Source of the DNA: Acidobacteriota bacterium
GTDB taxonomy: Bacteria > Acidobacteriota > Terriglobia > Terriglobales > Acidobacteriaceae
Direction of reading: 5' to 3'
DNA: 64,000 nucleotides
Assembly: GCA_021793405.1 (NCBI GenBank)
Contig: JAJYSV010000007.1
Coordinates: 1-64,000 of the forward strand
Below are positions 22,722 to 60,637 of the stretch, piece after piece (the first letter of the stretch is position 1; each line of letters begins with the position of its first letter). Position numbers and translations under genes: made by a program. The notes beneath the pieces were generated by a model. The model saw only the letters and a program-made list of their open reading frames with translations. It was not told where the DNA came from and made no database searches.

Positions 22722-23156
22722 GCTCATCGCACTCCCCCCCAAAAGCGAAGGGAAGCGTGACTTTAAGTTGCTCAAGATTGGAAACAAAACAGCAATCTGA
22801 TTCACTTAAACCTTGTGTAATAAGTTGTTAACTAGATAATCCTCGCGTAAATCTAGAGGTGTGAACGATGGAGCTAGCCAGTAGGGTCTGCCTGAGCACA
22901 AGCACAATGGTAATCACCTCAATTAAAACTAGGATGCCGGATTTTATCGGGATGGAAGGAAGCTTCAAAGTATGCAAAAGTCTGCGCAATAGCTTCGTTT
23001 TGCAGTAGCACGTTCGGAAGGCAAACCCAATGGAAGCTCATTTATGGGGAACTTGCAGCATGTTTGGGGGGAACGGCGCAATCGACCGCAAATGGCCATG
23101 AACATGCATATTCTATTTTGCCAGTCCAGTCGTGCCGGTCCTGCGAGGTTCGTACT
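22722..23156 (+). promoter_or_regulatory. 435-bp region upstream of the PKS-NRPS operon, with candidate promoter
   Basis: The only sizeable gap before the 39-kb operon, so it should contain the main promoter. A plausible sigma-70 site is TTGTGT at 22813-22818, a 16-bp spacer and GATAAT at 22835-22840, within an AT-rich stretch. This would give a leader of about 310 bases before the thioesterase ATG. The leader could encode a 40-residue peptide at 22868-22990 (GAGG lies before its ATG), but that ORF has no recognisable features. No riboswitch or operator was recognised. Confidence 0.35.
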
Positions 23157-23936
23157 ATGCAGAAACAGAGATCGCAATTTGTCATTTTCAGGCCGAGACC
23201 AGCGGCCTCTTTTCGTGTGTTTTGCTTTCCGCACGCCGGCGGCGCTCCGATTGCCTTCTTTCCATGGGCAGAGTGGTTCAGCGAAGACATTGAATGCGTA
23301 TGCCTGCAGTATCGAGGCAGAGCGCAGCGGATCAGAGAAAAGCCTTTAACGTCAATCGGAGAATTTGTTAGCGAGATCAGCGAGGATCTGGCTGCACTGT
23401 CAGACACGCCGTTCGCGTTTTACGGACATAGTTTCGGCGGTATTGTGGCGTTTGAGTTGGCCAGACAACTTCGGCGTTCCGGACGACCAGGACCGTCCCA
23501 CCTATTTGTAGGAGCGACGCGTCCTCCTCACCTGGAGTCACCATTTTCGCCCATCCATGCGCTTGCGAAAGAGGACTTTATCGCAAACGTGCAGTCTCGA
23601 TATGGCGGGATTCCCTCGGTAATTCTTGAAGATGCAGAGGTGATGAAGATGTTTCTGCCTGCAATGCGGGGCGACTTTACAGCTTATGAATCATATAGAT
23701 ATGAGCCTGGACCCCCGCTCGACATTCCGATTACCGCTTTCGGCGGAGCGCAAGACAAGGCTGTGGAACCTGAATGCCTCTACGAATGGGAATTGCATAC
23801 CCAAGCTGTTTTTGCTAGCAACATTCTACCGGGCGACCATTTTTTCTCTCTGACAAGTGGTAAAGAGCTGGTTCGCACAATCGAAGCCCGTTTTGTTGCA
23901 GGTAGGAGTGAACGGAACGCCACCTTCGCGGGTTGA
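23157..23936 (+). CDS. Type II thioesterase (PKS/NRPS editing)
   Basis: A 259-residue alpha/beta hydrolase of the external TEII family that removes aberrant acyl groups from carrier domains. The start region RPRPAASFRVFCFPHAGGAP is characteristic (LFCFPyAGG). The nucleophile elbow is FYGHSFGGIVAFELA with Ser92, the acid is probably the Asp in GGAQDKAV, and the His is His228 in PGDHFF. An upstream in-frame start at 23064 would add 31 unconserved residues. It is the first gene of the operon; PKS1 starts 15 bp downstream. No integrated thioesterase exists in the cluster, so this enzyme may also take part in product release, which is inference. Confidence 0.93.
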   Translation: MQKQRSQFVIFRPRPAASFRVFCFPHAGGAPIAFFPWAEWFSEDIECVCLQYRGRAQRIREKPLTSIGEFVSEISEDLAALSDTPFAFYGHSFGGIVAFELARQLRRSGRPGPSHLFVGATRPPHLESPFSPIHALAKEDFIANVQSRYGGIPSVILEDAEVMKMFLPAMRGDFTAYESYRYEPGPPLDIPITAFGGAQDKAVEPECLYEWELHTQAVFASNILPGDHFFSLTSGKELVRTIEARFVAGRSERNATFAG

Positions 23937-23951: not shown

Positions 23952-26900
23952 ATGAAAAGCGAAAGAACAAGCCAGGAAAGACAAGATCGGCAGTCAACCC
24001 AGAAGACGTTGGACCGCGATCCCATCGCGATTGTCGGGATCGGTTGCCGGTATCCCGGCGCGTCGAATCCTGAGGAGCTTTGGCGGAACCTGCTGGCCGG
24101 CACGGAATCCGTTGGGCCCTACCCGGGAGGGCGTTTTGCCGAGTTGGATCGGCTATATGAACAAGTCCGGAGCAAACACGCTCGGCTGTTTACCGACCGC
24201 GGCGGTTTTCTGCCCGACATTGCTGGCTTCGATTCACAGTTCTTTGAGATTTCCCCGCGGGAGTCGATCTATATCGATCCCCAGCATCGTCTGCTGCTGG
24301 AAGTTGCCTGGGAGGCCCTCGAAGACGCCGGCCAGACTCGGGAAACGTATGAAAATTCAGCCACGGGTGTGTACCTGGGGCTATGGACGAACGAGTACGA
24401 GTCACGATTGTATGAATCCGCCAGCGAAGGAGATTTTTATTCTGTAACTGGGTGCGGCCGTGCTTCGGCGTCAGGGCGGCTGTCGTTCACGTTTGGTTTT
24501 CAAGGGCCAAGCGTGACCATCGACACGGCCTGTTCTTCCTCGCTCGTGGCAGCGCATATGGCCTGTCAAAGCCTATGGGCTGGCGATATCGATATGGCGC
24601 TGGCTGGCGGAGCCAATCTCATCCTGGGCGCGGAGATTTCCGAGTTGTTTACCAAAGCCAACATGCTCTCGCCCGAGGGGAGCTGCAAGTTCGGAGATGA
24701 GTCGGCGAGCGGATTTGTGCGCAGTGAAGGCGCAGGCATTGTAGTTTTGAAAAGGCTGGCGCGCGCCGTTGCGGACAACGATCCCATTTACGCAGTCATT
24801 CGCGGCAGCGCAGTGAACAATGACGGACGTAGCAGTGGACTGCTGGTAACGCCCAGCCGCAGCGCGCAGCAGGAGTTGCTGCGCGCCGCCTGGAAATCCG
24901 CTGGCATCGAGCCGAAAGACATCTCCTACATCGAAATGCATGGCACGGGAACCAGTGTCGGTGATCCTGTCGAAGTTTCAGCGGTTGGCACCGCTTTGGC
25001 GGAGGCAGGCGTCACCGAGCCCTGTGCACTGGGATCCCTCAAGACGAATATCGGCCATACAGAATCTGCCGCCGGTGTAGCCGGACTCGTCAAGGCGGCG
25101 TTGACTCTGAAATATCGCACGATCCCCCCGAGTCTTCACTTCCATGTTCCAAATCCTAAGGTAGCGTGGGACAAGCTTCCTGTGCGGGTTGTAACGGAAA
25201 CAGTGCGGTTGCCGCAGACAACTGACTTGAGCCTGGCAGGGGTTAGCTCTTTTGGTATCACGGGGACGAATGCACACCTGGTTCTTGAAGAAGTGCGCCA
25301 GCCAGAGAATACTTTTCAGGGAAGTGGCCCTTATCTGCTGACGGTTTCGGCCCGCAGTCCGGAGGCCTTGGATTCGCTGTTGCGGGAGCATCTCGATGAG
25401 ATGCGCGCAGCCGGCCCGGAGTATCCCATTCGCGACGTCTGTTATACGGCGAGTGTCCGGCGCACCCACCACGAATGCCGGGCCGCGATCATCGCTGAGA
25501 ATATGACAGAATTCGAGGGGAACCTGGCTGCGGCCATTGCCAGGGAAGACAGCGATGGAGTTGTTTTCGGTCGTGCAAGCTCGACCCAGCAACCAACGGA
25601 GAACACCATCGTATTTGTTGCTCCTGGCCAGGGTTCGCAATGGCTGGGGATGGTCGGTGAACTTTTCGACCGCAATCCGGTATTTCGCCAGGCTTTCGAG
25701 CAATGCAACGCCGCCATCCACGCGGAAACGGGCTGGAGCTTGATTGATCGCGTCATAGGCGAGGATGCGGAGCGATACCTGACACAAATCGATGTGATAC
25801 AATCGGCCCTATTTGCCATGAGCGTTGCTCTTGCCGCCGTGTGGCGATCCTGGGGGATTGTCCCGAGTGCAGTCGTAGGTCACAGCATGGGTGAGGTTGC
25901 GGCAGCCCACATCGCCGGAATTCTTGATTTACAGGATGCTGTTGCCGTGATCTGCCGACGCAGCCAGTTGATGAAGACACTCACCAGCGCAGGCAGCATG
26001 GCGACCGTTGAGCTTCCCATGGCCGATGTCGAACTGCTGCTCGCATCTGTCGATGAGGTTTCCGTGGCAGCCAGCAATGGCCCTCACACCACCGTGATTT
26101 CCGGAGACACAAAGGCGATTGAGTCGATGTTGCGAGATCTAACCGCGAAGGACATCTATTGTCGGCAGATCAAAGTGGACGTGGCGTCGCATAGCGCCCA
26201 GGTCGATCCAATTCTGCCGGACCTTTTGGTCGCGCTATCGGGCGTTCGCCCTCACCCTGCCGAAATCCAGATGCTGTCTACGGTTACCAGCGAGTACGCG
26301 CAGAAAGCGGGCGATTCGCCCGGCGACGCAGGAACCCGCTTGGATGCCGACTACTGGGTCGAGAATCTGCGCCGCAGTGTTCTGTTCGCCCCAGCGATCA
26401 AGCAACTGTGCGCTGACGGCAAGGATGTCTTTATTGAACTTAGCCCGCATCCGATTCTGCTTCCGTCCATTGAATCGTCCGCGCGAGCGATCAATCCCCG
26501 CGCTGTTGCGGTGGCTTCGCTGCGCCGCGAAAAACCGGCTTGCGCAACCATGCTGGCCGGATTGTCGGCGCTGTACGCGGCGGGACGCCAGATCGACTGG
26601 CGGCGGCTCTATCCGGATCAAGCTCGTTGTGTGCGGTTGCCACAGTATCCGTTTCAGCGCGAGCGTTGCTGGCCGGAGCCGGGCGACCCGGCGCGCGGGA
26701 AGTATGCATGGCATACCAGCCAGACCAGTCCACTGCTCGGCCACAGATTTGAATCTTCGCTCGATCCCAATGCAATGCTTTGGGAAACTGATTTGCAACT
26801 CGCAAGCATTCGCTATCTCAACGACCATCGTGTCCTGCGCTCCGCTGTGTTTCCAGCGTCTGGTCATGTCGATATGGCTTTATCCGCTGCCAAGGAGATG

Positions 26901-29900
26901 TTCCCCGACCAGGTTTTTGAGGTCAGGAATGCGGTCTTTGCGAGTGCCGCGTACATTCCCGAGCAGGGAGCGAAAACGTTTCAATTGGCGCTCACTCCGG
27001 ACGGAAATGGTGCATACTCCTTTGCCATTCGAAGTCGGGGGGATCAAGGGGAAGCCGCGTGGCCCGTGCGCTCCCACGGCATCCTCCAGCCAGTTCAATC
27101 TGAGACCGCCCCTCCTGAAACCATCTCTTTGGCCGCTTTACAGGCTCAATATACGACTCACCGGGACGCGCAAGATCACTATGCCAGAACGACCCGATGC
27201 GGGCTGCAATATGGCCCCGCCTTTCAGTTGGTGCAGGAAGCCTGGGTCGGCGACCTCGCGAGTCTATGCAGATTGCGAGCCGACGTGTCGGACGGAGATC
27301 AGGATGTGATCCATCCCGCGATTCTCGACGCTTGTTTCCAGGCCATGACCCATGTGAGGCCAGAGCGGGACGCATTCAAAGCGGAAGACACATATTTACC
27401 GGTTGCGATCGAGAGGGTCTGCATCTACGGTCCAATTCCTGACCACGGTGATCTGTACGCGCAAGCTATGCTTGTGAGCGCCGATCCTCTGAATGGAACG
27501 TTCCGCACGGACTTGCGTTTGCTTGATCCTGTAGGCAACGTGCTGGTGGATGTCACAGGAATCGAAGTCAAGAAGGTCACCGAGCACAACGTGGCCACCA
27601 CCGAGCCGCTCTACGCGCTGCAATGGGTGGAAGAAAAACAGACCGGAACCGCAGGCCAGGCAGCCGAAGCGAGCACCTTGCTGCTACCCAAGGCGTCGGC
27701 TGAAAACTGGATGATCTTCGCCGATAACACTGGAATTGCGGAGGCGATGAAAACGTCGCTCGAATTTATCGGTGGACGCTGCACGCTGATCAGACCTGGT
27801 TCGAAGTTCAGAAGGATTGACGATTCGGAATTTGAGGTAAGTCTGGATGTTCACGATCTGAAGCGGCTGTTCGAGGATGCGGCCATCGGCGCCGGCACGC
27901 CTACCGCCGTGGTTCACCTGTGGTCGCTCGATCATGCTGCGGTCGCAGCCTATAAAGCAGAAGATCTTCTTCAAGCCCAAGCTAGGGGGAGCCAATATAT
28001 CCCCGGAATTGTGCAGGCAATAACGGCCGCGAATTGGGAGAATCCGCCGCGCCTTTGGCTAGTGACGGCAGGCGTGATGATGGTGGATAACAGCACCGAT
28101 TTGCCCCGGATTGAGAGCGCACCAATGTGGGGAATTGGCCGGAGCGTGGACCGGGAACACCCGGAGTTATGCACCACGCTGGTCGACTTGAGCTTGACGC
28201 CAGATCCGCTGGAAGCCCGCGCTTTAGCGCTACAAATTTGCACCAGAGGGCAAAACGATTGGATTGCGCTGCGCGGAAACCTGAAATATGTTGGGCGGCT
28301 CACACGTTATTCCCCGATGGTTCCGGAAGTAAAAGCGGAGCAGCTTGGAGATGGAGAAGACTATCGCATTGAGATTTCGGCAACCGGTATTTTCGACAAC
28401 GTCGAGTTGCGCGCTCGCGAGCATTCTTCGCCGAAGGCGGGTGAAATTGCCGTGGAAGTGGTGGAAGCTGGTCTGAACTTCAGCGACGTGACTAAAGTGA
28501 TGGGTCTCTATCCTGGACTGGTTCCGGGCGATCCCATCCCCCTGGGGAATGAAGGTGTGGGAAGGGTGGTTGCTGTCGGCGAAGGCGTGACGGAGTTCCA
28601 GGTTGGCGATGAGGTCATCGCCATTACTCCATCCATGCGGACAACCGGAATGATGGCATCCACAGTTTCGGTGCCTGTCGAGTTGGCTCTGCATAAACCG
28701 GTTGGGTTGACGGTCGAAGAAGCTGCGACGGTCGCGGTGGTTTATCTGACGGCTTATTGGTCGCTCGTGGAGCAAGCCCGTATCCGCGCGGGAGAGTGGG
28801 TATTGATTCATGCTGGGGCCGGCGGAGTCGGACTGGCCGCCATCGAAATCGCCAAATGGTCGAAGGCGAACATTATCGCCACGGTGGGCTCCAGGGAGAA
28901 GGAAGATTATCTGAGGTCTCTCGGAGTCCAGCACGTGCTCAACTCGAGATCGCTTACCTTTGCCGACGGCGTGATGGAAATTACGGAAGGACGAGGCGTC
29001 GATATCGTTCTGAATTCTCTTGCCGGAGAGTTTCTTTCGAAAGGCCTGGAGGTGCTGGCGCCATACGGACGGTTTATTGAAATGGGCAAGCGGGATATTT
29101 ACGAAGACAAGCCTGTAGGTCTCAAGGTGTTTCGCAACAACATTTCTTTCCATGTGGTCGATGTGGCCGCCGCCGTCGAAGACAGGCGCGCATATGTCGG
29201 GGAGTTGCTGGGCGAAGTGATGCGTCACATTGAAAGCGGCGACTGGCAGCCGTTGCCCGTGCAGTCTTTCTCCGCCGCCGATCCCAGCGTTCCATTCCGC
29301 TTTATGGCGCAGGCGCGCCACATTGGAAAAATTTCCATCCGCATGGATCGGGATGTTCGAGTTCTTCCCGCAAAAGACAAACCGCTGTTTTCCGCGAAGG
29401 CCAGCTATCTCATTACCGGAGGTCTTGGAGGCGTAGCCCTCACGGTGGCGGAGTGGATGGCAGAAAACGGTGCGGGTCATCTGGTCCTGATGTCGCGTCG
29501 TGGTCCGTCCACGGAATCCTCGGAAGCGATCCGAAGGATCGAGGAACGCGGAGCAAAGGTGGTCATGCTCCAAGGCGATATCACGCAGGAATCCGATCTG
29601 ACGAAAGCGCTGGAAACGATTCGAACAAATCTGCCTACACTCAAGGGAGTGATGCATGCCGCCGCGGTGGTGGACGATGCATTGATCGCGGATGTATCCG
29701 CGGGTCGATTTGTACCGGTGATGGCACCAAAAATAATCGGGACGTGGAATTTGCATCGGGCAACGCTCGATGAGAATTTAGATTTCTTCGTCATGTTTTC
29801 TTCCATCGCCGCTGTTCATCCACAACCTGGAATGGGCAGTTATGCGGCAGGAAACGCATTCCTGGATACGTTCGCGCACTACCGGCGAGCCCTGGGCCTG

Positions 29901-30617
29901 CCAGCCACCTCAGTAAACTGGGGCGGCTGGGACCGGATCGGGCTGGCACGAGCAGCTGGAACAGAACGCAGCATTGAAGGATATGAACTGCAGGGAATGA
30001 GGAATTTTTCGGGATCGGAGGCGCTTGCCGCTCTCGGACGCGTGCTCGAAACCAATCCAGTGCAGGTCATTGCCGTTCCATTCGATTGGGAAAAATTTGC
30101 TGCGTTCCACGGACCGAACGGAGCTCCACCGGCTTTCTCCGCCCTGTCGCGCATTTCTGTCGCGACCGAGACCTCCAGTCGCTCAGAGATTTTAGATCAG
30201 CTAATTGAAGCCGATTCGATTCCGCAGCGCCAGGAATTGCTCGAAACCTATTTGCAGGAAGTGTTGGGCCGAGTGTTAAAACTGGCGACGCGAAAGATCG
30301 ATCGGGAGCGTCCTCTGGGAAGCATGGGCCTGGACTCGTTGATGGGGCTGGAATTTGTTCGCCGGCTCAGCAACACACTCCAAATCGCCGTGCCGGCCAC
30401 CGTGGTTTTCAACTACCCGACCATTCAGCAGATGGCTTCTCACCTTCTGCGCAGATTGCAGTTGGCTGCTTCGGAAGATTCGAGCACGCCCGCGGAAAAA
30501 CCTGCCGGCACGCCTGTGCTGAATGGCAAAGACAGCCGGGTAGATGGCCTTTCCGATGGCTTGACGGAACAAGACGCGTTGCACGCCCTGATGGGTAATG
30601 GGCAGAGGAGTTCCTGA
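23952..30617 (+). CDS. Type I PKS module 1: KS-AT-DH-ER-KR-ACP
   Basis: A fully reducing polyketide synthase module of 2,221 residues. KS (about 22-440) has Cys194 in DTACSSS plus HGTGTS and KTNIGH histidines; it is not a KSQ decarboxylase. AT (about 550-890) has Ser645 in GHSMGE and the specificity motif VASH, which leans to methylmalonyl-CoA. DH (about 925-1205) has His959 (HRVLRSAVFP, Arg in place of the usual Gly) and HPAILDACFQ. ER (about 1480-1790) shows LIHAGAGGVGLAA. KR (about 1815-2010) has TGGLGGVA, a Tyr in SYAAGNAF and a VDD motif (B-type). ACP Ser2129 lies in GLDSLM. Its stop overlaps the PKS2 ATG (TGATG). As the first PKS it would accept an unidentified starter. Confidence 0.94.
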   Translation: MKSERTSQERQDRQSTQKTLDRDPIAIVGIGCRYPGASNPEELWRNLLAGTESVGPYPGGRFAELDRLYEQVRSKHARLFTDRGGFLPDIAGFDSQFFEISPRESIYIDPQHRLLLEVAWEALEDAGQTRETYENSATGVYLGLWTNEYESRLYESASEGDFYSVTGCGRASASGRLSFTFGFQGPSVTIDTACSSSLVAAHMACQSLWAGDIDMALAGGANLILGAEISELFTKANMLSPEGSCKFGDESASGFVRSEGAGIVVLKRLARAVADNDPIYAVIRGSAVNNDGRSSGLLVTPSRSAQQELLRAAWKSAGIEPKDISYIEMHGTGTSVGDPVEVSAVGTALAEAGVTEPCALGSLKTNIGHTESAAGVAGLVKAALTLKYRTIPPSLHFHVPNPKVAWDKLPVRVVTETVRLPQTTDLSLAGVSSFGITGTNAHLVLEEVRQPENTFQGSGPYLLTVSARSPEALDSLLREHLDEMRAAGPEYPIRDVCYTASVRRTHHECRAAIIAENMTEFEGNLAAAIAREDSDGVVFGRASSTQQPTENTIVFVAPGQGSQWLGMVGELFDRNPVFRQAFEQCNAAIHAETGWSLIDRVIGEDAERYLTQIDVIQSALFAMSVALAAVWRSWGIVPSAVVGHSMGEVAAAHIAGILDLQDAVAVICRRSQLMKTLTSAGSMATVELPMADVELLLASVDEVSVAASNGPHTTVISGDTKAIESMLRDLTAKDIYCRQIKVDVASHSAQVDPILPDLLVALSGVRPHPAEIQMLSTVTSEYAQKAGDSPGDAGTRLDADYWVENLRRSVLFAPAIKQLCADGKDVFIELSPHPILLPSIESSARAINPRAVAVASLRREKPACATMLAGLSALYAAGRQIDWRRLYPDQARCVRLPQYPFQRERCWPEPGDPARGKYAWHTSQTSPLLGHRFESSLDPNAMLWETDLQLASIRYLNDHRVLRSAVFPASGHVDMALSAAKEMFPDQVFEVRNAVFASAAYIPEQGAKTFQLALTPDGNGAYSFAIRSRGDQGEAAWPVRSHGILQPVQSETAPPETISLAALQAQYTTHRDAQDHYARTTRCGLQYGPAFQLVQEAWVGDLASLCRLRADVSDGDQDVIHPAILDACFQAMTHVRPERDAFKAEDTYLPVAIERVCIYGPIPDHGDLYAQAMLVSADPLNGTFRTDLRLLDPVGNVLVDVTGIEVKKVTEHNVATTEPLYALQWVEEKQTGTAGQAAEASTLLLPKASAENWMIFADNTGIAEAMKTSLEFIGGRCTLIRPGSKFRRIDDSEFEVSLDVHDLKRLFEDAAIGAGTPTAVVHLWSLDHAAVAAYKAEDLLQAQARGSQYIPGIVQAITAANWENPPRLWLVTAGVMMVDNSTDLPRIESAPMWGIGRSVDREHPELCTTLVDLSLTPDPLEARALALQICTRGQNDWIALRGNLKYVGRLTRYSPMVPEVKAEQLGDGEDYRIEISATGIFDNVELRAREHSSPKAGEIAVEVVEAGLNFSDVTKVMGLYPGLVPGDPIPLGNEGVGRVVAVGEGVTEFQVGDEVIAITPSMRTTGMMASTVSVPVELALHKPVGLTVEEAATVAVVYLTAYWSLVEQARIRAGEWVLIHAGAGGVGLAAIEIAKWSKANIIATVGSREKEDYLRSLGVQHVLNSRSLTFADGVMEITEGRGVDIVLNSLAGEFLSKGLEVLAPYGRFIEMGKRDIYEDKPVGLKVFRNNISFHVVDVAAAVEDRRAYVGELLGEVMRHIESGDWQPLPVQSFSAADPSVPFRFMAQARHIGKISIRMDRDVRVLPAKDKPLFSAKASYLITGGLGGVALTVAEWMAENGAGHLVLMSRRGPSTESSEAIRRIEERGAKVVMLQGDITQESDLTKALETIRTNLPTLKGVMHAAAVVDDALIADVSAGRFVPVMAPKIIGTWNLHRATLDENLDFFVMFSSIAAVHPQPGMGSYAAGNAFLDTFAHYRRALGLPATSVNWGGWDRIGLARAAGTERSIEGYELQGMRNFSGSEALAALGRVLETNPVQVIAVPFDWEKFAAFHGPNGAPPAFSALSRISVATETSSRSEILDQLIEADSIPQRQELLETYLQEVLGRVLKLATRKIDRERPLGSMGLDSLMGLEFVRRLSNTLQIAVPATVVFNYPTIQQMASHLLRRLQLAASEDSSTPAEKPAGTPVLNGKDSRVDGLSDGLTEQDALHALMGNGQRSS

Positions 30618-33600
30618 TGCCTGCTTCCGATAAGCCCCGCATCTCCCCGGCAAAGCTCGCGCTCGCTGTTCGGCGGCTGCGAGCTGAGAAGGAAGATCTC
30701 GATCTGATCGCCTCCGACCCGATCGCCGTGGTTGGGATGGGATGCCGCTTTCCGGGTGGAGGCAATTCTCCAGAAGAATTTTGGACAGCTCTCAAGGAAG
30801 GATGCGACGGCGTCAGCGAAGTTCCTGAGGGACGCTGGAAAGACGCTGCCGAGCTTCCGCTCCAACTCCGAAGAGGAGCCTACTTACCAGAGATTGACGG
30901 ATTCGACGCTGCGTTTTTCGGCATTTCACCACGCGAGGCGCAACTGATGGACCCACAGCAGCGATTGCTGCTGGAAGTGACATGGGAAGCGTTATGGGAT
31001 GCTGGGATTGATCCCGCGAGTCTCGCCGGCACGGATGCCGGAGCATTCATCGCCATTTACAACAGCGATTACGCGCGGCTCCATTTCCGCGACACCTCAG
31101 CCCTGACTGCGCACGGAGGGATCGGCAGCGCGCATAGTGTTGCGGCTGGGCGGCTATCATTTTTGCTCAATCTAAAAGGACCGAGTCTGGCCATCGATAG
31201 CGCGTGTTCTTCCTCGCTGGTTGCCACCCATCTCGCCTGCCAAAGCCTGCGCAGCCGGGAGTGTGGTCTTGCCATTGTAGGTGCGAGCAGTCTCAAAACG
31301 CTTTCCGATGAAGTGATCGTATTTTCAAAGTGGGGAATGCTGGCGAGCGACGGAAAGTGCAAGGCATTCGATGCCAGCGCCGACGGTTTTGTGCCGGGAG
31401 AAGGCAGCGGCGTCGTCATTTTGAAGCGGCTTTCGGACGCGCTTCAGGATGGGGACCGCGTCCGCGCCGTGATTCGCGGCACGGCCGTGAACCACGATGG
31501 GAAAACAACCGTGCTGACCGCGCCGAACGGCCTGGCGCAGGAAGCCCTCTTTCGCGCGGCGCTGAGCAATGCCATGCTTGCGCCCGGCGACATCAGCTAC
31601 ATTGAAACGCACGGCACCGGTACCTCGCTTGGCGACCCCATCGAGATCGAGGCCGTCAGCGCAGTGTACGGACAGCCGGGTACGGGAGCGCCACCTTGCA
31701 TACTGGGCGCTGTGAAAACAAACTTGGGCCATCTCGAGGCAGCGGCGGGAATCGCCGGAATCATCAAAACAGTGCTGTGCCTTGAGCACGGAGAAATCCC
31801 GCGAAATTTGCACTTCCACCGGTTGAATCCGGAGATTTCTCTCACTGGTACGCGCCTGAAGATATCAGCGGAAAACACGCCATGGGCCCGCGGCGAAAAA
31901 CCGCGAACCGCCGGTGTCAGCTCGTTCGGTTTGGGGGGCACGAATGGCCATGTAATTTTGGAAGAAGCACCCCTGCTTCCAACACAGAACGCCGCCAGCG
32001 GCCGCACAATTCCGCTGCCAGCCTACGCGTGGAAACGCGAGCGATTCTGGCTGGCTGAAGTTCTCACCGCGAAGCGGATCGATCAAGAGGCCACCCCCGC
32101 ACGTGTTCCCGCCGATGGGCTTGTCCACCCGTTGCTGGGAAAACAAATTGAATCTGTCTTCATTCAGGGTAAGCTTTTTGAATCGGAACTCGACACATTC
32201 GCCGATTCTTACCTGGCGGATCACACCTTGGGGTACCGGCCTATTCTTCCGTTCGCGGCATTTCTGGAAATCGCGGCGGCGGCGCTTCGGCAAATAGACA
32301 AGTCCGGCAGCTCGATCCGCAATCTTGTAGTCCGTGATCCACTCTTTCTATCTTCCGGCGGTTGCCGACTGCAAGTGCTGGTTACCGACGGCTCTATCGA
32401 GATGGCCAGCGTTAGCGGGACCCGCTGGACAACGCACACCAAAGGCTCGGTTCAGCCATCGGACAGGGGAATACCTATCGTCGATCTGGCCGGTCTGCAG
32501 GCAAGCTGCCAGAAAGAAATTTCTGCAAACGATATCTATGACATTTTGGAGCGCACGGGCCTTCGCTATGGAACGGCCTTCCGAACGATTCAGGCGGTGT
32601 GGTCCGGCAAGGGCGAATCACTTGCGCGCCTGCGCTTGTCGGAAGAGGCGGCAAGAGATGCGCAGCAGTACGGACTGCATCCCACGTTGCTCGATGGTTG
32701 TTTGCAGACCGTTATCGCCGCGCGAGAGGAATCGAACGCCGACTTATTTCTGCCCATCAGTGTCGATCATTTCGAGTTGCTTCAGACGGGCAAGACCGAA
32801 GTCTGGGTCCACGTAAAGGTTGTCGCTTCCAGCGCAGAGGCATTTTCCGCCGATATTGTCGTGATGGACGCCTCCGGCAGCGTCGTAGCGCGGCTCGTCG
32901 GTTTTCAAGCAAAGCGCGCGAACGCAGTCACGTTGAACCAGGCACCTTCCAGCGATTCGGCTCCAATGTATGAGTTGGCGTGGCGCCCCGCACCGCTGGC
33001 GGCTGGAGTTAGGTCTTCCCGATCCGGCGAGCACTGGCTGCTGATCGAGTCGCAGGAAGGAAGTTGCAGCCATCTGGTGGATCTGCTGGAGCAACAGGGT
33101 GGCAAGTGCGACGTGCTTGTTCGCGGCGCACAATCTCTTCACTCCATAATCGCCAAGGTTGCATGGTCGGGAATCGTATATGACGCGCGCGGAAGTGAAA
33201 ATCCCGGGGATGCTTCCGAGTGGACTCACCCGGAAAAGAATGACGTAGAGTTTGTTCTGGAGTTTGTAAAGTTTCTGGGAATTCCAAACGACGCAGTCGC
33301 TCCAAGGATTTGGATCGTATCTTCCGCTTCTGCGGCGGTGTTGCCATCGGAGAGTGTATCGATTGCGCAATCGCCTCTGTGGGGATTGGCGCGCACGCTG
33401 ATGCTGGAGCATCCAGAGACTTCGCCGGTTCTGATCGATGTCGGATCGGAGATGGGTACCGTAGGCGCATCGCAAGAGATAGCGGAGATGGTGGCTGCTG
33501 AGATGGCTGCCAATGGTCCAGAAGCGATGGTCGCCTTCCGGCACGGGACCCGTTACATAGCTCGGCTGATCCCGGATCTTCAGCGCCCAGAAGCTGCACA

Positions 33601-35821
33601 AAGGCTAAGAATCGATCCGTCGGGCCGTCTGGAAGACCTACGCATCGAAGCGACAAAACGGAAAGAGCCACAACCGCACGAAGTCGAAATCGAGGTGCGC
33701 GCATCGGGCCTGAATTTCCGCGATGTACTGACGGCGCTGGCCATGTTTCCAGCCCGCACTGCGACGCCAGGCGCTGAGTGTGCCGGCACGATTGTGAGGG
33801 TAGGTTCCGAGGTTCGCGGCTTGCAGGTCGGCGATGCCGTTCTCGCCTTCGCGCCAGCCAGCCTGCAAACCTTCGTCAACCTACCGGCAGATTTCGTGAC
33901 GAGAAAGCCGGCGGCCTTGGCCTTCGCCGAGGCAGCTGGAATTCCAATTGCGTTTTTGACCGCGGAGTATGGCCTGCATCGGTTGGCCAACCTCTTCGCT
34001 GGACAACGTATTCTGATTCATGCCGCCGCCGGTGGATTGGGATTGGCCGCCGTCCAGTTGGCGATGCGTGCGGGTGCAGAAGTATTTGCCACCGCCGGCC
34101 ATCCAGACAAGAGGGCGTTTCTGGCAAAGCTGGGGGTGGAGCATATCTTCGACTCGCGCTCACTCTCATTTCGTGACGAAGTATTGCGGGTGACCGGAGG
34201 AGTGGGTGTCGATGTGGTGCTGAACTCACTTGCCGGGGAGTTTATTCGCGCCAGTCTCGATGTCGTGGCCGAAGGCGGTTGTTTTCTCGAAGTGGGCAAG
34301 CGCGATCTGTGGAGCGCTGAAGAAGTGGCAGCACTTGGAAAGCATATTCGCTATTTTCCATTCGACCTGGGCGAAGTGGCAACGGATGATCCGAAGCTGA
34401 TTGCGAAGATGTTGAGTGAGTTGATGGGGCGTTTCTCAACCGGTGAACTGCAGCCATTGCCAACCACGCTCTATTCCATTGAAGACGCGGCGCAGGCCTT
34501 CCGCACCATGGCTCAGGCCCGCCAGATTGGGAAGATCGTGCTGGGGTTCGATAGCGCAAACCGAGGCCAGACTGTTCGCGACGCAGTATCGGATGGCACC
34601 GTATTGATTACAGGCGGCCTGGGAGCATTAGGCTCGCAGTTGGCACGATGGCTGGCAGGACAAGGAGCCAAGCACATCGTTCTCGCGGGCAGAAGCGCGG
34701 ATGATAGCGGAGAAAACTCGGCTGTCGTAGAGCTGCGCAACCAAGGTGTGGATGTCACGATCGAGCGCGTCGATGTAGCATCATCCTCCCAATTGCAGCG
34801 ACTTCTCGATGATATTCGTGCTGCGCGACCGCCGCTGCGCGCCGTGTTTCATGCCGCCGGCGTCCTGCACGATTCTGTGTTGGGCAAAGAGTCATGGGAC
34901 TCCTACTGCGAAACCACGGCGCCGAAGATTCAAGGAGCGTGGAATCTCGATCGGCTAACTCAGCACGACCCGATCCGGCTTATGGTGTTTTTCTCTTCGG
35001 CGGCATCTGTCCTTGGTTCGCCTGGGCAAGGAAGCTATGCCGCGGGCAACGCATTTCTCGACGCGCTGGCGCATCATCGCTCCAGCCGGGGGCTGGCGAC
35101 GCTCAGCGTGAACTGGGGAGCGTGGGCGTCGTCGGGAATGGCTGCACGCCTGACACCGGAGCAATCCGCCCGATGGACTCGGCAAGGAGTAATCCCTATG
35201 GAGCCTCGCGCTGCATTGGCGGCACTCCAGACGGCTATCGAAGCAGGTCGTTCGCAGGTCGCGGTGATGGATCTGGATTGGGAACAATTTCTCAGCGCCG
35301 GTCCAGCGCGACGAGATGTCGCCTTTTTCTCCGAACTTCAGTCGTTCGAACGCGAGCACAGAGAACAGCACCGGAGTGACCATGTTCAACCGGCTCGCAG
35401 GATCGTCGAGGAGCTGCGCTCCGCTCCAGAATTCGAACGGAAATTTCTTTTGTCTACGCACATAAAAATATGCGCGCGTCGAGTGCTGGGGTTGCGGGAA
35501 TCGGCGCCCATTACGGATAGCGTTGCATTGCAGGATGTTGGATTGGACTCTTTGATGGCCCTCGAAATGCGGAATGATCTCTCGCAGTCTTTGGGCATAA
35601 CGCTGGCAGCGGGTCTGCTATTCGACCATCCGTCCATCGAAGAACTCACCCAGCATTTACTTGGAATTTTGGCGCCATCCATAGAATCTGTCGCCGCAAC
35701 CACAGTGCCGGACGATGCAACCGGCGCAACGATCGAGTTGCAATCCATAAGTGACGCAGAGGCGGAACTGCTCCTGATTCAAGAGCTCGATCGAGCCGGA
35801 AGGGAAAAAGCGAATGCCTGA
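30617..35821 (+). CDS. Type I PKS module 2 lacking AT: KS-DH-ER-KR-ACP
   Basis: A 1,734-residue module. A coiled-coil N-terminal docking helix precedes KS (about 33-450; Cys197 in DSACSSS, HGTGTS, KTNLGH). An AT should follow, but after the KS end (GHVILEEAPLL) only about 15 residues remain before the post-AT linker motif LPAYAWKRERFWL. DH (His536 in DHTLGYRPILP; HPTLLDGCLQ), ER (about 995-1310; HAAAGGLGLAA), KR (about 1325-1510; GGLGALG, SYAAGNAFLD, LHD) and ACP (Ser1645 in GLDSLM) are all intact. The preserved linker shows precise loss of an AT rather than descent from trans-AT PKSs. The carrier must be loaded by another AT. Its 3' end overlaps PKS3 by 8 bp. Confidence 0.94.
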   Translation: MPASDKPRISPAKLALAVRRLRAEKEDLDLIASDPIAVVGMGCRFPGGGNSPEEFWTALKEGCDGVSEVPEGRWKDAAELPLQLRRGAYLPEIDGFDAAFFGISPREAQLMDPQQRLLLEVTWEALWDAGIDPASLAGTDAGAFIAIYNSDYARLHFRDTSALTAHGGIGSAHSVAAGRLSFLLNLKGPSLAIDSACSSSLVATHLACQSLRSRECGLAIVGASSLKTLSDEVIVFSKWGMLASDGKCKAFDASADGFVPGEGSGVVILKRLSDALQDGDRVRAVIRGTAVNHDGKTTVLTAPNGLAQEALFRAALSNAMLAPGDISYIETHGTGTSLGDPIEIEAVSAVYGQPGTGAPPCILGAVKTNLGHLEAAAGIAGIIKTVLCLEHGEIPRNLHFHRLNPEISLTGTRLKISAENTPWARGEKPRTAGVSSFGLGGTNGHVILEEAPLLPTQNAASGRTIPLPAYAWKRERFWLAEVLTAKRIDQEATPARVPADGLVHPLLGKQIESVFIQGKLFESELDTFADSYLADHTLGYRPILPFAAFLEIAAAALRQIDKSGSSIRNLVVRDPLFLSSGGCRLQVLVTDGSIEMASVSGTRWTTHTKGSVQPSDRGIPIVDLAGLQASCQKEISANDIYDILERTGLRYGTAFRTIQAVWSGKGESLARLRLSEEAARDAQQYGLHPTLLDGCLQTVIAAREESNADLFLPISVDHFELLQTGKTEVWVHVKVVASSAEAFSADIVVMDASGSVVARLVGFQAKRANAVTLNQAPSSDSAPMYELAWRPAPLAAGVRSSRSGEHWLLIESQEGSCSHLVDLLEQQGGKCDVLVRGAQSLHSIIAKVAWSGIVYDARGSENPGDASEWTHPEKNDVEFVLEFVKFLGIPNDAVAPRIWIVSSASAAVLPSESVSIAQSPLWGLARTLMLEHPETSPVLIDVGSEMGTVGASQEIAEMVAAEMAANGPEAMVAFRHGTRYIARLIPDLQRPEAAQRLRIDPSGRLEDLRIEATKRKEPQPHEVEIEVRASGLNFRDVLTALAMFPARTATPGAECAGTIVRVGSEVRGLQVGDAVLAFAPASLQTFVNLPADFVTRKPAALAFAEAAGIPIAFLTAEYGLHRLANLFAGQRILIHAAAGGLGLAAVQLAMRAGAEVFATAGHPDKRAFLAKLGVEHIFDSRSLSFRDEVLRVTGGVGVDVVLNSLAGEFIRASLDVVAEGGCFLEVGKRDLWSAEEVAALGKHIRYFPFDLGEVATDDPKLIAKMLSELMGRFSTGELQPLPTTLYSIEDAAQAFRTMAQARQIGKIVLGFDSANRGQTVRDAVSDGTVLITGGLGALGSQLARWLAGQGAKHIVLAGRSADDSGENSAVVELRNQGVDVTIERVDVASSSQLQRLLDDIRAARPPLRAVFHAAGVLHDSVLGKESWDSYCETTAPKIQGAWNLDRLTQHDPIRLMVFFSSAASVLGSPGQGSYAAGNAFLDALAHHRSSRGLATLSVNWGAWASSGMAARLTPEQSARWTRQGVIPMEPRAALAALQTAIEAGRSQVAVMDLDWEQFLSAGPARRDVAFFSELQSFEREHREQHRSDHVQPARRIVEELRSAPEFERKFLLSTHIKICARRVLGLRESAPITDSVALQDVGLDSLMALEMRNDLSQSLGITLAAGLLFDHPSIEELTQHLLGILAPSIESVAATTVPDDATGATIELQSISDAEAELLLIQELDRAGREKANA

Positions 35822-38800
35822 TTCCATTTCCGATCGCAACAACAGTTCTCCGGAACTGTCGCCCGTCAAGCGGGCACTGCATGAAATTCGCGCCTTGCGC
35901 GCCCGGGTAAACGAACTTGAGTCGGCGCAACATGAGCCGATTGCAATCATTGGCACCGGGCTAAGATTTCCCGGGGGTGTGATCGATGAGTCATCATTTT
36001 GGAAGTTGCTTGCCGAAGGATGCGACGCGATTACTGAAATTCCGCGCGACCGATGGGACTGGCGCGCGTACTTCAACGCCGATCCAGACGCTCCCGGCGC
36101 GATGGTTACGCAGCATGGCGGATTTGTTGCTGGAGTCGATCGCTTCGATGCTGCGTTCTTCGGCATCTCTCCGCGCGAAGCCATAGCCATGGATCCCCAG
36201 CATCGCCTTGCTCTGGAAGTTGGTTGGGAAGCACTCGAGAATGCCGGGTACAGTCCCGCCGTGCTTCAGGACACGCCGACGGGGGTGTTCCTCGGTATAG
36301 GCAATCACGATTATGGCCGTTCTGCACTAGCAGATATTGAGCACATCGATGCGTACACTGGCTCCGGCAATTCTCCCGCCATGGTTGCGGGGCGCCTCTC
36401 GTATGTATTGGGTCTGCACGGGCCGTCGTTGGCCGTCGATACTTCCTGTTCGTCTTCGTTGGTTGCGGTCCATCTTGCCTGTCAGAGCCTGCGGGCAGGG
36501 GAGTGCAAATTTGCGCTGGCGGGTGGAGTGAATCTCATTCTGTCGCCCGATTCGAATATTGCACTATCGAAGGCGCACATGATGGCGCGCGACGGGCATT
36601 GCAAGACTTTCGATGAAGCAGCAGATGGTTATGTGCGCGGCGAGGGCTGCGGAATCGTCGTGTTAAGAAAATTGTCCGACGCACTCGCCGATGGTGATCG
36701 CATCCTCGCGGTCATTCGAGGATCTGCCGTGAACCACGATGGGCGCAGCGGAGGGTTGACCGCGCCCAATGGTCCAGCGCAGGCGGCGGTAATTCGCTCC
36801 GCACTCGAAGTCGCGCAGGTAAACGCGGCAGAGATTGGATATCAAGAAACCCACGGCACCGGCACGGCATTGGGCGATCCCATTGAAGTGGAAACGCTCG
36901 CGTCCGTAATGGGCAGCGGACGGGCCGCTGATACTCCAGTGGCGATCGGCTCGGTGAAGACAAACATCGGACACCTGGAAGCGGCCAGCGGTATAGCGGG
37001 CCTGATGAAAGCTGTGCTTGCGCTCCAGCATCATGCCATTCCGCCGAGCCTGCACCTGAAGCAAAAAAGTTCTCACATCGATTGGGATCGCCTACCGGTT
37101 GTGGTGCCGACCGAGATTGCCGAATGGAAGCCCCTGAACGGCCATCGATACGCCGGTGTCAGCTCGTTTGGATTCAGCGGAACAAATGCACACATCGTGC
37201 TGGAAGAGGCTCCAAAGCTGGTACGTGTCGCGAGCGTCGGCGAATGTCCAAAACATATCCTTACCATTTCCGCAAGATCGCAGGAAGCCCTCGACAGTCT
37301 CCGGGTACAGTACGCGGCTGCTCTCCGTGCATCTTCCGCAGATGCATTGCCGAACCTTTGTTTCACAGCCAATTCCGGACGCACGCACTTTGCTCATCGC
37401 ATGGCTGTTATAGCAGAGACTGCCGAACAGATGGCAACAGCATTGGAGCAGGATCAGAATGTTCGATCATCCGCATGTATATTTACCGGAATTGCCGAAG
37501 ACGGCGATGCGGGCCGGATCTGTTTTTTATGTACGGGGCAGGGGAGCCAGTATGTAGGGATGGGTCAGGAACTGTATGCAAGCTCGGAGGTATTTCGCGC
37601 GGCGATCGAGCGATGCGCGGCGGGGTGGAAAGAAGAGACAGGCGAGTCGCTGATCGAGGTGCTGTACCCGCAGGAAGGCGAGGTCAACAGAGCGAACGCC
37701 GAGAGCCGAATGAAGCAGGCGCGGTACGCGCAGGCGGCATTGTTTGCCTTGGAGTATGCGCTGGCGGAGTTATGGCGCAGTTGGGGGATCGAGCCGAGCG
37801 TGGTGCTGGGCCACAGCCTGGGAGAATATGTCGCAGCGGTGATTGCAGGCGTGTTCAGCGTGGAGGATGGACTGCGGTTGGTATGCGCGCGGGCGCGGCT
37901 GATGGACACGTTGACAGAACCGGGAGCGATGCGATCGATAGGAGCGACCGCGGAGCGGGTGCGGCAAGAGATTGCAGGGCTGGAATCGGAAGTAGGGATT
38001 GGAGTCATCAACGGGGCGGAGACGGTGGTGCTGTCGGGGCTGGCCGAGACGGTGGAGAGGGTGGCGAAGAAACTCGAAGCAGAGGGTATTCGGACGCGGC
38101 CGCTGGAGGTGACGCATGCCTTTCACTCACCGTTGCTGGAGCCGATCCTCAACGAGTTTGAATCCTGTGCGGGGAAGGTGCAGTATCATGCGCCGCGCAT
38201 TCGCATCATCTCGAATCTGACGGGAAAGGCGGCGCGAGCCGAAGAGATTACGACGGCGCAATACTGGCGGGAGCATATGCGCCGGACGGTGCAATTCGAT
38301 GCCGGCCTGAAGACCGCGCTCGAAACCGGCTGCCAGACCCTGCTCGAAATCGGCCCCCAGCCCCATTTGAAGGCCCTCGCGGTGCGCTCGGATGCATCTC
38401 TGGAATCACGCATCAAGATCTCACTACGACGGCAGAAAAATGACTGGGATCAAATGCTGGAGACACTTGCCACGTTGTATGTCGAGGGAGAAGCGGTTAA
38501 TTGGCGCGGCTTCGAAAGGGGTCATCGCCGCACCCGCATGGCACTTCCCACCTATCCATTTGAGCGCCAGCGGTACTGGCTCGCTTCGGAGGACGGAGAC
38601 GTTTCCCTCCGGAAATGGCAGTGCGCCACGGGGGCGGCATTGTCACAGTCGAGACTCGTGCCGATCGGCTTGAAGGTCGAATCGTTCGCCGCTAAATGGA
38701 TGGCCCTCGAACGATTGACGATTGCGGAGATCCTCCGAGCACTGCGAGGTCTCGGCGCCTTCGCTACGGCCGGCACCTCCCATGACGCGAAATCACTTAC

Positions 38801-40277: not shown

Positions 40278-43200
40278 ATGGATGAGGCAAAGAAATCGAC
40301 GGAAGGATCGGCGCTTCTCAAGCAGGCCTTTCTCGCGGTCCAGGAGATGCAGGCGAAGCTGGAGGCGGCGGAGCTGCGCTCTCGCGAGCCCATTGCGATC
40401 ATCGGCCTGGGATGTAGATTTCCAGGCGCAGTGGTCAATGGCGACACCTTTTGGGATCTGCTTCGGGAGGGTCGCGATGCGATTTCGCTGGTTCCACCCG
40501 ATCGCTGGGATGCCGACGCATATTATGATCCCGATCCCGATCAGCCCGGCAAAATGGTGACGCGCTGGGGCGGATTTCTCGATCAAATCGATCAATTCGA
40601 TGCAAAGTTTTTTGAGATTGCACCCCGAGAAGCGGCCAGCATGGATCCGCAGCAGCGGCTTGCGTTGGAAGTCGCCTGGGAAACATTGGAGAACGCTGGG
40701 GTTGCTCCAACGGATTTACGCGGCACAAAAACCGGGGTCTTTTTGGGCATCGCCAGCAACGATTATAGCCAGCTCTTTGCGCAGACTGGCGATCCTGAAG
40801 CGATGGATGCGCATTACGCTTCGGGTATTGCGCACAGCATTGCGTCAGGGCGTATTTCCTACCTTCTTGGACTGGAAGGTCCCAGTATCTCTTTAGACAC
40901 AGCTTGCTCGTCGTCGCTGGTTGCGGTTCATCTGGCCTGTGAGAGCCTGCGCGCGGGTGACTGCAGTCTTGCTCTGGCAGGCGGCGTGAATGCGATGCTG
41001 GCTCCCGAAACGACTGCTCTCCTGTCGCGTGTCCGCATGCTCTCGCCAGGTGGCCGCTGCAAAGCGTTTGATGAAAGCGCGGACGGGTTTGTTCGGGGCG
41101 AAGGCTGCGGCTTCGTGGCGCTGAAAACCCTGTCCCAGGCGCAGGTCGATGGCGATCGCATCTTGGCGGTGATTCGCGGCACAGCCATCAATCAAGACGG
41201 CGCGAGTAGCAGTCTGACTGCTCCCAATGGTCCATCGCAGGTAACCCTGATGCGACAGGCCCTTGCAACTGCCGGACTCCGGCCCGCAGATGTCTCCTAT
41301 GTCGAAGCCCACGGGACAGGAACCGCATTGGGTGATCCGATCGAGCTTCAGGCCCTGGGAGCCGTCTATGGGGCGGCGCGTCCGCAGGACCGGCCTCTTC
41401 ATGTGGGTTCGCTCAAAACGAATCTAGGCCATCTGGAGGCAGCGGCAGGCATCGCGGGACTCATCAAGACGGTCCTTGCACTCGACCATGCCCAGATTCC
41501 TCCGCACCTCCATCTCAAGCAGCCGACTTCGCACGTGCGATGGGATGATTTGAGGCTCACGGTTCCGGGGCAATTGATCGACTGGGAGACAGACGGGCAG
41601 GAGCGCATCGCGGCCGTCAGTTCGTTCGGATTCAGCGGCACCAACGCGCACATTATCGTGGCCGCAGGTTTGCCAGACAACACTCCCCGCAGCAATACCG
41701 GCTGGCCGGTGCAGGTACTTGCGCTATCGGCAAAGTGCAATTCGGCGCTCAAGCAGTTGACGGAGCAGTATCGCGCAGTTCTTGAACAAGCGCCCCCAAC
41801 CGACCTGCGCGATGTTTGTTTTACCGCGAATACTGGCCGGTCACACTTTCCTCATCGCGCATGTTTCCTCGCCGCCGATGCTGAGCAGATAAGGCAACAG
41901 CTCGCAGCTTTTCAGAATCCGGCCGTACCGGTCGCCACTGCGGCGGGCCGGATCTGTTTTTTATGTACGGGGCAGGGGAGCCAGTATGTAGGGATGGGGC
42001 AGGAGCTATATGCAAGCTCGGCGGTATTTCGCGCGGCGATCGAGCGATGCGCGGCGGCGTGGAAAGAAGAGACAGGGGAGTGGCTGATCGAGGTGCTGTA
42101 CCCGCAGGAAGGCGAGGTCAACAGAGCGAACGCCGAGAGCCGAATGAAGCAGGCGCGGTACGCGCAGGCGGCATTGTTTGCCTTGGAGTATGCGCTGGCG
42201 GAGTTATGGCGCAGTTGGGGGATCGAGCCGAGCGTGGTGCTGGGCCACAGCCTGGGAGAATATGTCGCAGCGGTGATTGCAGGCGTGTTCAGCGTGGAGG
42301 ATGGACTGCGGTTGGTATGCGCGCGGGCGCGGCTGATGGACACGTTGACAGAACCGGGAGCGATGCGATCGATAGGAGCGACCGCGGAGCGGGTGCGGCA
42401 AGAGATTGCAGGGCTGGAATCGGAAGTAGGGATTGGAGTCATCAACGGGGCGGAGACGGTGGTGCTGTCGGGGCTGGCCGAGACGGTGGAGAGGGTGGCG
42501 AAGAAACTCGAAGCAGAGGGTATTCGGACGCGGCCGCTGGAGGTGACGCATGCCTTTCACTCACCGTTGCTGGAGCCGATCCTCAACGAGTTTGAATCCT
42601 GTGCGGGGAAGGTGCAGTATCATGCGCCGCGCATTCGCATCATCTCGAATCTGACGGGAAAGGCGGCGCGAGCCGAAGAGATTACGACGGCGCAATACTG
42701 GCGGGAGCATATGCGCCGGACGGTGCAATTCGATGCTGGCCTGAAGACCGCGCTCGAAACCGGCTGCCAGACCCTGCTCGAAATCGGCCCCCAGCCCCAT
42801 TTGCTGAGTCTCGGCAAGTCGGCTCACAACGCTCCCGATTGCTTCTGGTTGCCGTCGGTCCGCAAGGGGCGCAATCCGTGGCTTGACCTTCTCAGCTCGG
42901 TCAAGACCCTCTATGAGCTAGGAGCGGAAATCAACTGGAAAGCTCTTTACGGAAAGTCCGGCCGTCCCATCGCGCTACCGACGTATCCGTTCGAGCGCCA
43001 ACGTCATTGGTTCCCGATGAAGCCAGAAAGGATTTCCGCATCTCTTCCGCTCTGCTCCGCCGGAAACCATCCACTGCTGGGTGCGCGCGTCAACTCGCCT
43101 CTTGCGGAAATTCAGTTTGCATCGCAGATCCGTCCCGATCATCCATCGTACCTTGGCGACCATGTTGTAGCAGGGCAACGTGTAGTTCCGGCAGCGGCAT

Positions 43201-46200
43201 ACCTGGACATGGCGTTGAGTGCCGCCAAGGCGGCTGGTCTGGCTGCACCCGGCGAATCGTCATCTGTGAGGGCAGTCGCTTTCCTACAGCCCTGCATATT
43301 TGATGAGCCACGAAATCTGCAATGCGTGCTTCGCAGCCAGGAAAGGGGCCACTCATTTGCGATCTATAGTTGCGCCGCCGAAACGGAGGCAGAAGACGAT
43401 GCGACCGGGCCGCAGTGGGTCCTGCACGCAACCGGGGAGTTATCGTCGGATCCGCGTGGCCAATCCATGCAGGAGAATCTCGAAGCAATTCGCAAGCGTT
43501 GTGGCGAAGAAAAAGACTCCAATACTTTCTATCGCGCGTTTGACGAACTTGGCGTGCGTTTTGGCGTCAGTTTCCGTCCTGTGACCCGCGTGTTTCTTGG
43601 CGCTAATGAAGCCCTTGTAGAGTTTGCGCTCCCGCCCGACATAGACGCAGCTCCCTATCAGATTCATCCCATCGCGTTGGACGCCTGTTTTCAGGCTGTC
43701 GCAGCGATTCTGTCACCATCTGCGGATAGTCGCGGCGCCATCTATCTTCCTGCGGCGCTGGAAGAACTTCGCATCACCGGTGATCCACGAACGGTGGCAC
43801 TCGCCCATGCCCGGGTGCGGCGTGGGAGTCCAGACGAAAGTGGCCTGCCCGTCACTGCGGATGTGTACGGATTCGATCCATCCGGCCACCTTCTTGTGTC
43901 CGCGACCGGCTTGATGCTTCGCCCCTTCGATCGGGAAGCTCAGGAGTGGTCGGGTTCCAATTCAATTTCCGAATCGATCTATGAAGTCGTTTGGATCCCC
44001 GTAGAAGGAGCTGCTCAGGCTGTTTTCAATCCGAGCAATATAGACGCGCAACCGTCGGCGCCTGACGCCGCGAGGACTGCAATGAACGCAATTCACGGCA
44101 CCTGCGTGCTCGCTGGGGCTGGGGATGAGGCATGGACTTCCAGCCTGACGCACGTACTCAGGCGCGATGGCATTTCCTGTGCGACCATGCAGCCAGGCGA
44201 GGCTGAAACAAAACTTGCTGCGATCGGGAATGAGATGGCGTCCCCCATCAGCGATCTCATATACCTGGCCACGCCTGCGTCAGATATCTCGCAGATCGAG
44301 CCGGCAGACGGGATGAAGATCGAAGCGCAGATCCTGGGGGAGTGCTTGCGAATCGTCCAAGCGCTGTTGGCCTTGGATTTGAAAACGACTCCGAGACTTT
44401 GGATTGTCACCAGGGGAGCTCAAGGTCCAGCGGTATCGAATGTCCTGCAGTCCACTGTCTGGGGATTTGGCCGTTCCGTTGCCGCGGAATATCCGGAAAT
44501 GCGCGTCGTGCGGATCGACCTCGACCCCTCACGCGAGACCACAGGTGAAGAACTACTAAGGCTGGTGCAGGCAAAGCAATCGTTGCCTGAGATTGCGTCA
44601 GAAGATGAGCTGGCATGGCGCGGGAATGAAATCTATGTCCCGAGACTCAGGCCCATTGCATCCCTCTCATCGACACCGGAGCGAGATTGCAGCGCGGAAG
44701 AACCGAATGAGCAGCTTGCCCTCGTCTCAGTCGGCACTCTGGATGGAATTGAATTGATCCCGACGGGCCGCCGCAGCCCGGAACCTGGAGAAATCGAAAT
44801 CCGAGTGCATGCCGCTGGATTGAATTTTCGCGATGTCCTGAATGTGCTCGGAATGTACAAGGGAAAAAGCGGGCCGCTCGGAGGAGAATGTGCCGGAACA
44901 GTCGTTCGAGTCGGTTCGGGAGTGAAGGCCTTTCGGCCAGGGGATCAAGTCGTCGCTCTCGGCCAGGGCTGCTTTGCGAGATTCGTAACCGCACGCGCAA
45001 ATATGGCGTGGCGAAAACCTGCAAATCTTAGCTTCGAGGCCGCCGTAACCATTCCAGTCGCATTCCTGACGGCGAAATACGCGTTGGAGACCTTGGCCGG
45101 CATACGGTCGGGCGACCGCGTATTGATTCATGCCGGTGCGGGCGGAGTCGGTCTAGCCGCAATTCAGATTGCGCAGAAGGCGGGCGCTACCGTTTTTGCC
45201 ACTGCGGGAAGCGCGGAAAAGCGAGCCTACCTTGCATCCATCGATGTGGGGCATGTCATGGATTCGAGATCAATCGAGTTCGCACGTGAGATTCGCGAGA
45301 TCACGCACGGACGAGGAGTGGATATTGTTCTGAATTCACTGAGCGGACAATTCATCGATGCGGGACTGGAGATATTAGCGCCCGGCGGACGTTTTATAGA
45401 AATGGGAGTTGCGGACCTTCGGTCGCAGGAATCCGTGGCGAAGGTTCGTCCGGATGTGACCTACACTCCGTTCAACCTGGCGCCGGCGCTCGAGAGCGGC
45501 GACAGTTTTGTTCGCGAAACTTTGACGGCCATCTTCGATCAATTCCAGTCCAGCACGCTGCATCCCTTGCCGCAGAAAACCTTTCCCTTGGAAAAGGCGC
45601 AGGAATCATTTCGATATATGGCGCAGGCGCGACATATCGGCAGAGTAGTTCTTTGCCCCGCTTTGAATCTCAATTTGGCCAGCATCCGCCCAGACGGCGC
45701 ATACCTGGTAACGGGTGGACTGGCCGGAATCGGCTTGTCGATCGCGGAGTGGCTCAGTCAGCGCAGCGCGGGCCAAGTCATCGTATTGGGACGAAGTGCG
45801 CCCAGCGCCGATGCAGCGAAGGTGTTCGACAGAATGCGTTCTGCCGGCACGGGCGTGAGCATTTGCCAAGGCGATGTTTCGAAGGAAGCCGATGTGGCGG
45901 CTGCTCTCCACTATGCAGACAAATTTCCACTCTTGGGGGTCTTTCATTGCGCCGGTGTTCTCGATGACGGAGCATTATTGCAGCAAGACTGGGACAGGTT
46001 TGAACGCGTCTTATCTCCCAAGCTGGAAGGTGTATGCCACCTGCATCATCTCACCGCCGGCAAGCGCCTGGATCATTTCGTACTGTTTTCGTCGATAGCC
46101 TCGATATTCGGTTCGGAAGGACAAGCCAATCACGCCGCTGCCAATGCTTTCCTCGATGCCATGGCTCAATATCGGAATGCGCACGGACTGCCCGCGCTGA

Positions 46201-60578: not shown

Positions 60579-60637
60579 GCGGGTCACTTTCGGCCAGGGC
60601 CGGATCGTTCGGTGTTGCCTGGGACCTATATAAGCGT

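Follow-up and report, generated by a model that had tools for sequence, protein, structure and literature searches.

Differing stages and extents of AT loss in two modules of one acidobacterial PKS-NRPS line

We examined a PKS-NRPS line carried by the window, that is, the whole 64,000-nucleotide stretch of acidobacterial DNA that was analyzed. AT-bearing and AT-less modules occur together in this line, and its features are as follows.

23064 to 23936, + strand: stand-alone thioesterase (type II) adjoining the line
25611 to 26564, + strand: PKS1 AT, intact (GHSMGE, VASH), candidate loader
30617 to 35821, + strand: PKS2 gene, KS-DH-ER-KR-ACP without AT or KS-AT linker domain (LD) (1734-aa ORF, Pfam domains)
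30716 to 31972, + strand: PKS2 KS with its active-site Cys and both His, in the cis-AT clade in trees
31973 to 32008, + strand: PKS2 junction, where the AT is missing along with the LD and most of the post-AT linker
32009 to 32050, + strand: PKS2 post-AT linker remnant, IPLPAYAWKRERFW
32126 to 32926, + strand: PKS2 DH with its His and Asp; Tyr takes the place of the motif Gly
33671 to 34543, + strand: PKS2 ER (Pfam, motif check)
34595 to 35128, + strand: PKS2 KR (Pfam, motif check)
35471 to 35659, + strand: PKS2 ACP with GLDSL, a carrier that very probably needs loading in trans
37524 to 38393, + strand: PKS3 AT, intact (GHSLGE, HAFH), candidate loader
41958 to 42875, + strand: PKS4 AT, intact, near-copy of the PKS3 AT, candidate loader
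46904 to 52537, + strand: PKS5, KS-LD-AT (dead by motif)-MT-KR-ACP
48620 to 49423, + strand: PKS5 AT relic, with GYGTG in place of GHSxG and without the segment that holds the catalytic His; in the relative G025, excised completely
57576 to 58502, + strand: PKS7 AT, intact (GHSVGE, HAFH), candidate loader

The last protein of the line (60518-62275) carries just two domains, a TubC-type docking domain and a condensation domain, and lacks a TE in cis; its C domain may release the chain.

A Pfam scan of the translated PKS2 ORF placed the KS at aa 34 to 401 and the DH from aa 504, followed by ER, KR, and ACP, and gave no match to Acyl_transf_1. The KAsynt_C_assoc match ended at profile position 55 of 111. 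The KS end and the linker motif were separated by 17 residues in PKS2 versus 439 to 449 in PKS1, PKS3, PKS4, and PKS7; the loss therefore takes in not the AT alone but also the LD and the greater part of the post-AT linker. About 425 residues (1.3 kb) are absent, and the sequence across the junction reads GHVILEEAPLLPTQNAASGRTIPLPAYAWKRERFWL. The initial annotation, which had reported that PKS2 lacks its entire AT but keeps the post-AT linker, was right about the AT; of the linker, about 14 residues remain, followed by DH-ER-KR-ACP, and most is gone. Its description of a precise AT excision does not hold, as the LD and most of the linker were lost too. Its statement that all other motifs are intact was only nearly right, because the Gly of the DH motif is replaced. 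The catalytic motifs of the KS, ER, KR, and ACP are intact. In the DH, HxxxGxxxxP has Tyr at the Gly position in the window; two relatives have Asp there, and G025 has the Gly. In an AlphaFold2 model of the KS-DH region, both domains folded, and residues 455 to 520, including the linker remnant, had a pLDDT of <50 and were covered by only four sequences; thus, we base no claim on this model.

Orthologues of PKS2 were found in three relatives, G008 (70% identity), G006 (71%), and G025 (52%), the last of which belongs to another genus of the same family. The module is carried by 3 of 10 genomes of the genus, its own genome included, and the line is syntenic in four genomes from two genera. The three relatives are separate MAG assemblies, and in each the junction is spanned, in frame, within a single contig. 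This bears on the possibility, named by the initial annotation as its own refutation, that an AT identical to another had been collapsed during assembly. The ATs of PKS3 and PKS4 are indeed 99% identical, and a collapse of this type does occur in G006, but at the PKS3/PKS4 AT repeat, where one contig (L033, G006:C261) fuses the KS-LD-AT of PKS4 with the MT of PKS3 and is an assembly chimera. Collapse of the PKS2 AT is ruled out by the three separately assembled relatives, which share the junction with diverged sequence, and we regard the chance of such an artifact as negligible. The dN/dS ratios of the PKS2 domains ranged from 0.04 to 0.21, values that are rough because dS was near or at saturation; PKS2 is under strong purifying selection.

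The initial annotation had proposed that a module of cis-AT descent had lost its AT, with the phylogeny of the KS as a check. In a careful tree of 81 KSs, the PKS2 KS (KS2) of all four genomes fell inside a clade of 36 rows (100/99), in which every row from another line with sufficient downstream sequence has an AT. The Bacillus trans-AT KSs formed another clade, with the exception of one divergent row. Forcing KS2 to group with the Bacillus trans-AT KSs, a reference consisting of one Bacillus line in both the tree and the AU test, cost 93 log units (p-AU, 6e-6); trans-AT ancestry of KS2 is thus ruled out, and the proposed descent is borne out. L018, which had an odd placement on a long branch, was left out of a second KS tree. 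The best single solved KS for KS2 by sequence was that of CurL, which we take to be a cis-AT PKS. PKS2 resembles a trans-AT PKS in having no AT domain inside the module, a domain that a cis-AT PKS has, and resembles a cis-AT PKS in the clade of its KS, which lies outside the trans-AT clade. Its flank also differs from that of trans-AT modules, as had been stated, because the LD is gone as well. The loss of the AT from PKS2 is real, conserved, and of cis-AT origin.

PKS5 contains a second affected AT, which the initial annotation had missed. Its serine motif is GYGTG here and GYGLG in two relatives, the segment bearing the catalytic His is gone, its Pfam match spans only positions 2 to 115 of 319, and, judged from these features, this AT is catalytically dead. 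The relic has also evolved faster than the intact ATs (dN, 0.40, versus 0.15 in AT1 and AT7). In G025, the AT of PKS5 is wholly gone and the LD is kept, with 115 residues between the end of the KS and the motif. With PKS2 excised together with its LD, and PKS5 dead here and excised in G025, one line thus shows AT loss in two modules, at differing stages and to differing extents.

Several further features of the line were observed. The motifs of AT1 (GHSMGE and VASH) are unlike the malonyl-type HAFH of AT3, AT4, and AT7, and in the DH motif of PKS1 (23952-30617), HRVLRSAVFP, Arg occupies the place of the Gly. A segment of 861 bases with sharp edges is common to the PKS3 and PKS4 ATs, at 99.07% identity (37509-38369 and 41943-42803). 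This repeat has a GC skew of 0.26 versus 0.05 for the cluster and a TA skew of only −0.09, shows the same skew in G006, and resembles GRINS gene-conversion repeats. In the KR of PKS4 (40278-46907), the catalytic Tyr is replaced by His (QANHAAAN), and the Tyr is retained in G008, G006, and G025.

Besides four intact ATs within the line, a search of the genome (G000; completeness estimate, 100%) found one more at each of two further PKS loci and a single free-standing AT. The free-standing AT adjoins plsX and rpmF (gene names read from translations) and so is the housekeeping FabD, the only discrete AT of the genome; the initial annotation had suggested looking for such an AT and had not seen that this is the only one. 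FabD was also the only free-standing AT in G008 and G025, and it was not found in G006, whose genome is 72% complete. No dedicated discrete AT, as found with trans-AT PKSs, is encoded with the line, and relocation of the PKS2 AT to another ORF is ruled out, as there is none in the genome. Since PKS2 has no AT, a separate enzyme probably provides its building block, and we consider it very probable that the AT-less modules are loaded in trans, in agreement with the earlier claim that the PKS2 carrier must be loaded from elsewhere. FabD, which is favored because it is free to diffuse, is the most probable supplier, followed by an intact AT of a neighboring subunit; our confidence that FabD is the loader is moderate. 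For the AT-less barnesin NRPS-PKS, findings indicate that FabD can do the loading (PMC13096860). FabD would be unsuitable if module 2 requires methylmalonyl.

The best explanation, which we hold with middling confidence, is that PKS2 would be a working elongation module of cis-AT descent, from which an in-frame deletion would have removed the AT together with the LD and the bulk of the post-AT linker before the genus and the lineage of G025 split. Its ACP would be charged in trans, most probably by the malonyl transferase FabD. PKS5 would be on the same path, its AT dead here and excised in the relative. A neighboring intact cis-AT could instead charge ACP2 and ACP5 besides its own ACP, with FabD uninvolved, and we consider this possible, if doubtful. 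AT1 could act via PKS1-PKS2 docking, as the two genes are adjacent and overlapping, or AT3, AT4, or AT7 could do so, and all four have complete active-site motifs; nothing in the sequence singles out any one of them, however, and cis-ATs usually prefer the ACP of their own module.

It is also conceivable that module 2 is skipped, with the chain passing from ACP1 through KS2 to ACP2 without extension, so that no loader is needed. The lack of a dedicated AT in the cluster and the replaced DH motif Gly in three of the four genomes fit this, but the DH, ER, and KR would then be left without a substrate and yet are kept under purifying selection, the KS residues for condensation are also kept, and PKS5 would require the same excuse; skipping is therefore unlikely. 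That the ACPs are loaded by a discrete trans-AT missing from the assembled contigs or the bin is very unlikely: the genomes are drafts (at least 137 contigs), but the completeness estimate of G000 is 100%, the whole line lies on one contig with no such gene beside it, and in G008 and G025, too, no free-standing AT other than FabD was found. That the line is a decaying, nonfunctional locus is scarcely credible. AT5 has decayed, and in the window the KR of PKS4 is without its catalytic Tyr, but the large ORFs have no stop or frameshift, constraint is strong, and synteny is kept in four genomes of two genera.

Lines that mix the two kinds of module are known: in a catalogue of 8799 lines, 473 combine cis-AT and AT-less modules (122 PKS and 351 PKS-NRPS) (PMC10394414). 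Of the other AT-less KSs, 30 had sufficient downstream sequence, and an LD was detectable in 28 of these; an LD kept behind the KS, as in trans-AT PKSs, is absent from PKS2 and present in PKS5 of G025. With a junction profile (A2), we found no further LD-less case among the best candidates in surveys of the order (298 genomes), the phylum (396 genomes), and the phylum of an actinobacterium (396 genomes). At least one case (G699) was found in 386 genomes of a cyanobacterium's phylum and at least two (G1228 and G1122) in 377 genomes of a myxobacterium's phylum. These counts are lower bounds because genomes were sampled, only the best 10 or 13 candidates in each survey were scored, and the profile was built from four close sequences and is biased to them. 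The junctions of G699, G1228, and G1122 share the form of the PKS2 junction (IIQEAPFISSIEKSFRTPLPPYSFQRQRYW and LILGEAPALDEAAAAARAARPKVEPAVFQPKRYW), and their KSs fell in the cis-AT clade, apart from KS2, in a quick tree. The acidobacterial and myxobacterial LD-less KSs were separated in the free tree, and a single clade of both was not quite rejected (AU p, 0.07), so an independent origin of these junctions is likely rather than shown. It is unusual for the cut to be so clean and for stages of loss to coexist in a single line, and LD loss is uncommon. We tentatively see here a natural cis-to-trans conversion in progress, in which ATs are lost one by one (PKS2 with its LD; PKS5 dead or excised) as FabD or a neighboring AT takes over, and in which excision of LD and AT at the KS end may have come about on more than one occasion among the cis-AT KS lineages of separate phyla.

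Two other groups of loci were noted in the surveys. The cyanobacterial line L159/L160 (G699:C23) has one full-AT module, AT-less modules with only an LD, and one AT-less module without an LD, and its other KSs group with trans-AT KSs. An actinobacterial PKS family has AT-less KS modules in which the LD is kept, several of them beside AT-bearing modules on the same locus (L043, L048, L058, L065, L069, L076, L082, L088-L090, L093, L098, L099, L102, L104-L107, and L119).

The origin of AT-less assembly lines is debated. In the syntenic lines of these close relatives, ATs that are intact, dead by motif, excised with the LD, and excised without it stand side by side, so the steps of the loss and the loader are directly testable. 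The EEAP site is where engineers split KS from AT (PMC11907408), and the natural cut in PKS2 falls just behind it. A cis-type KS and a DH are here naturally joined without an LD or an AT between them, and the junction is a template for building AT-less modules.

Compared with known systems, the line is like the kirromycin-type mixed lines in combining AT-bearing and AT-less modules in one PKS-NRPS line and unlike them in that no discrete AT is encoded with it and PKS2 has no LD (PMC10394414). With the bacillaene-type trans-AT PKS (PMC11907408), PKS2 shares the lack of an AT and, as far as its sequence suggests, a carrier loaded in trans. However, bacillaene-type KSs keep the LD, whereas PKS2 has a KS of the cis-AT clade, no LD, and no dedicated trans-AT; only PKS5 of G025, with its LD kept, resembles the bacillaene-type flank. 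PKS2 probably works like a trans-AT module, and by KS clade, LD, and dedicated AT it lies outside the trans-AT family.

The FK228 system is an AT-less NRPS-PKS served by FabD. The barnesin system is like the present one in having an AT-less module and FabD as the sole free-standing AT (PMC13096860); unlike it, the line described here keeps ATs in its other modules, and loading by FabD is here only putative. In algal type I PKSs, cis-AT modules have likewise been inferred to have lost their ATs and to rely on trans loading (PMC4661987), but nearly all of the multimodular ones are AT-less, whereas in the closely related bacteria described here the loss can be followed one module at a time. Mixed lines are known, and what is new is the excision that took the LD as well and the graded series within one line.
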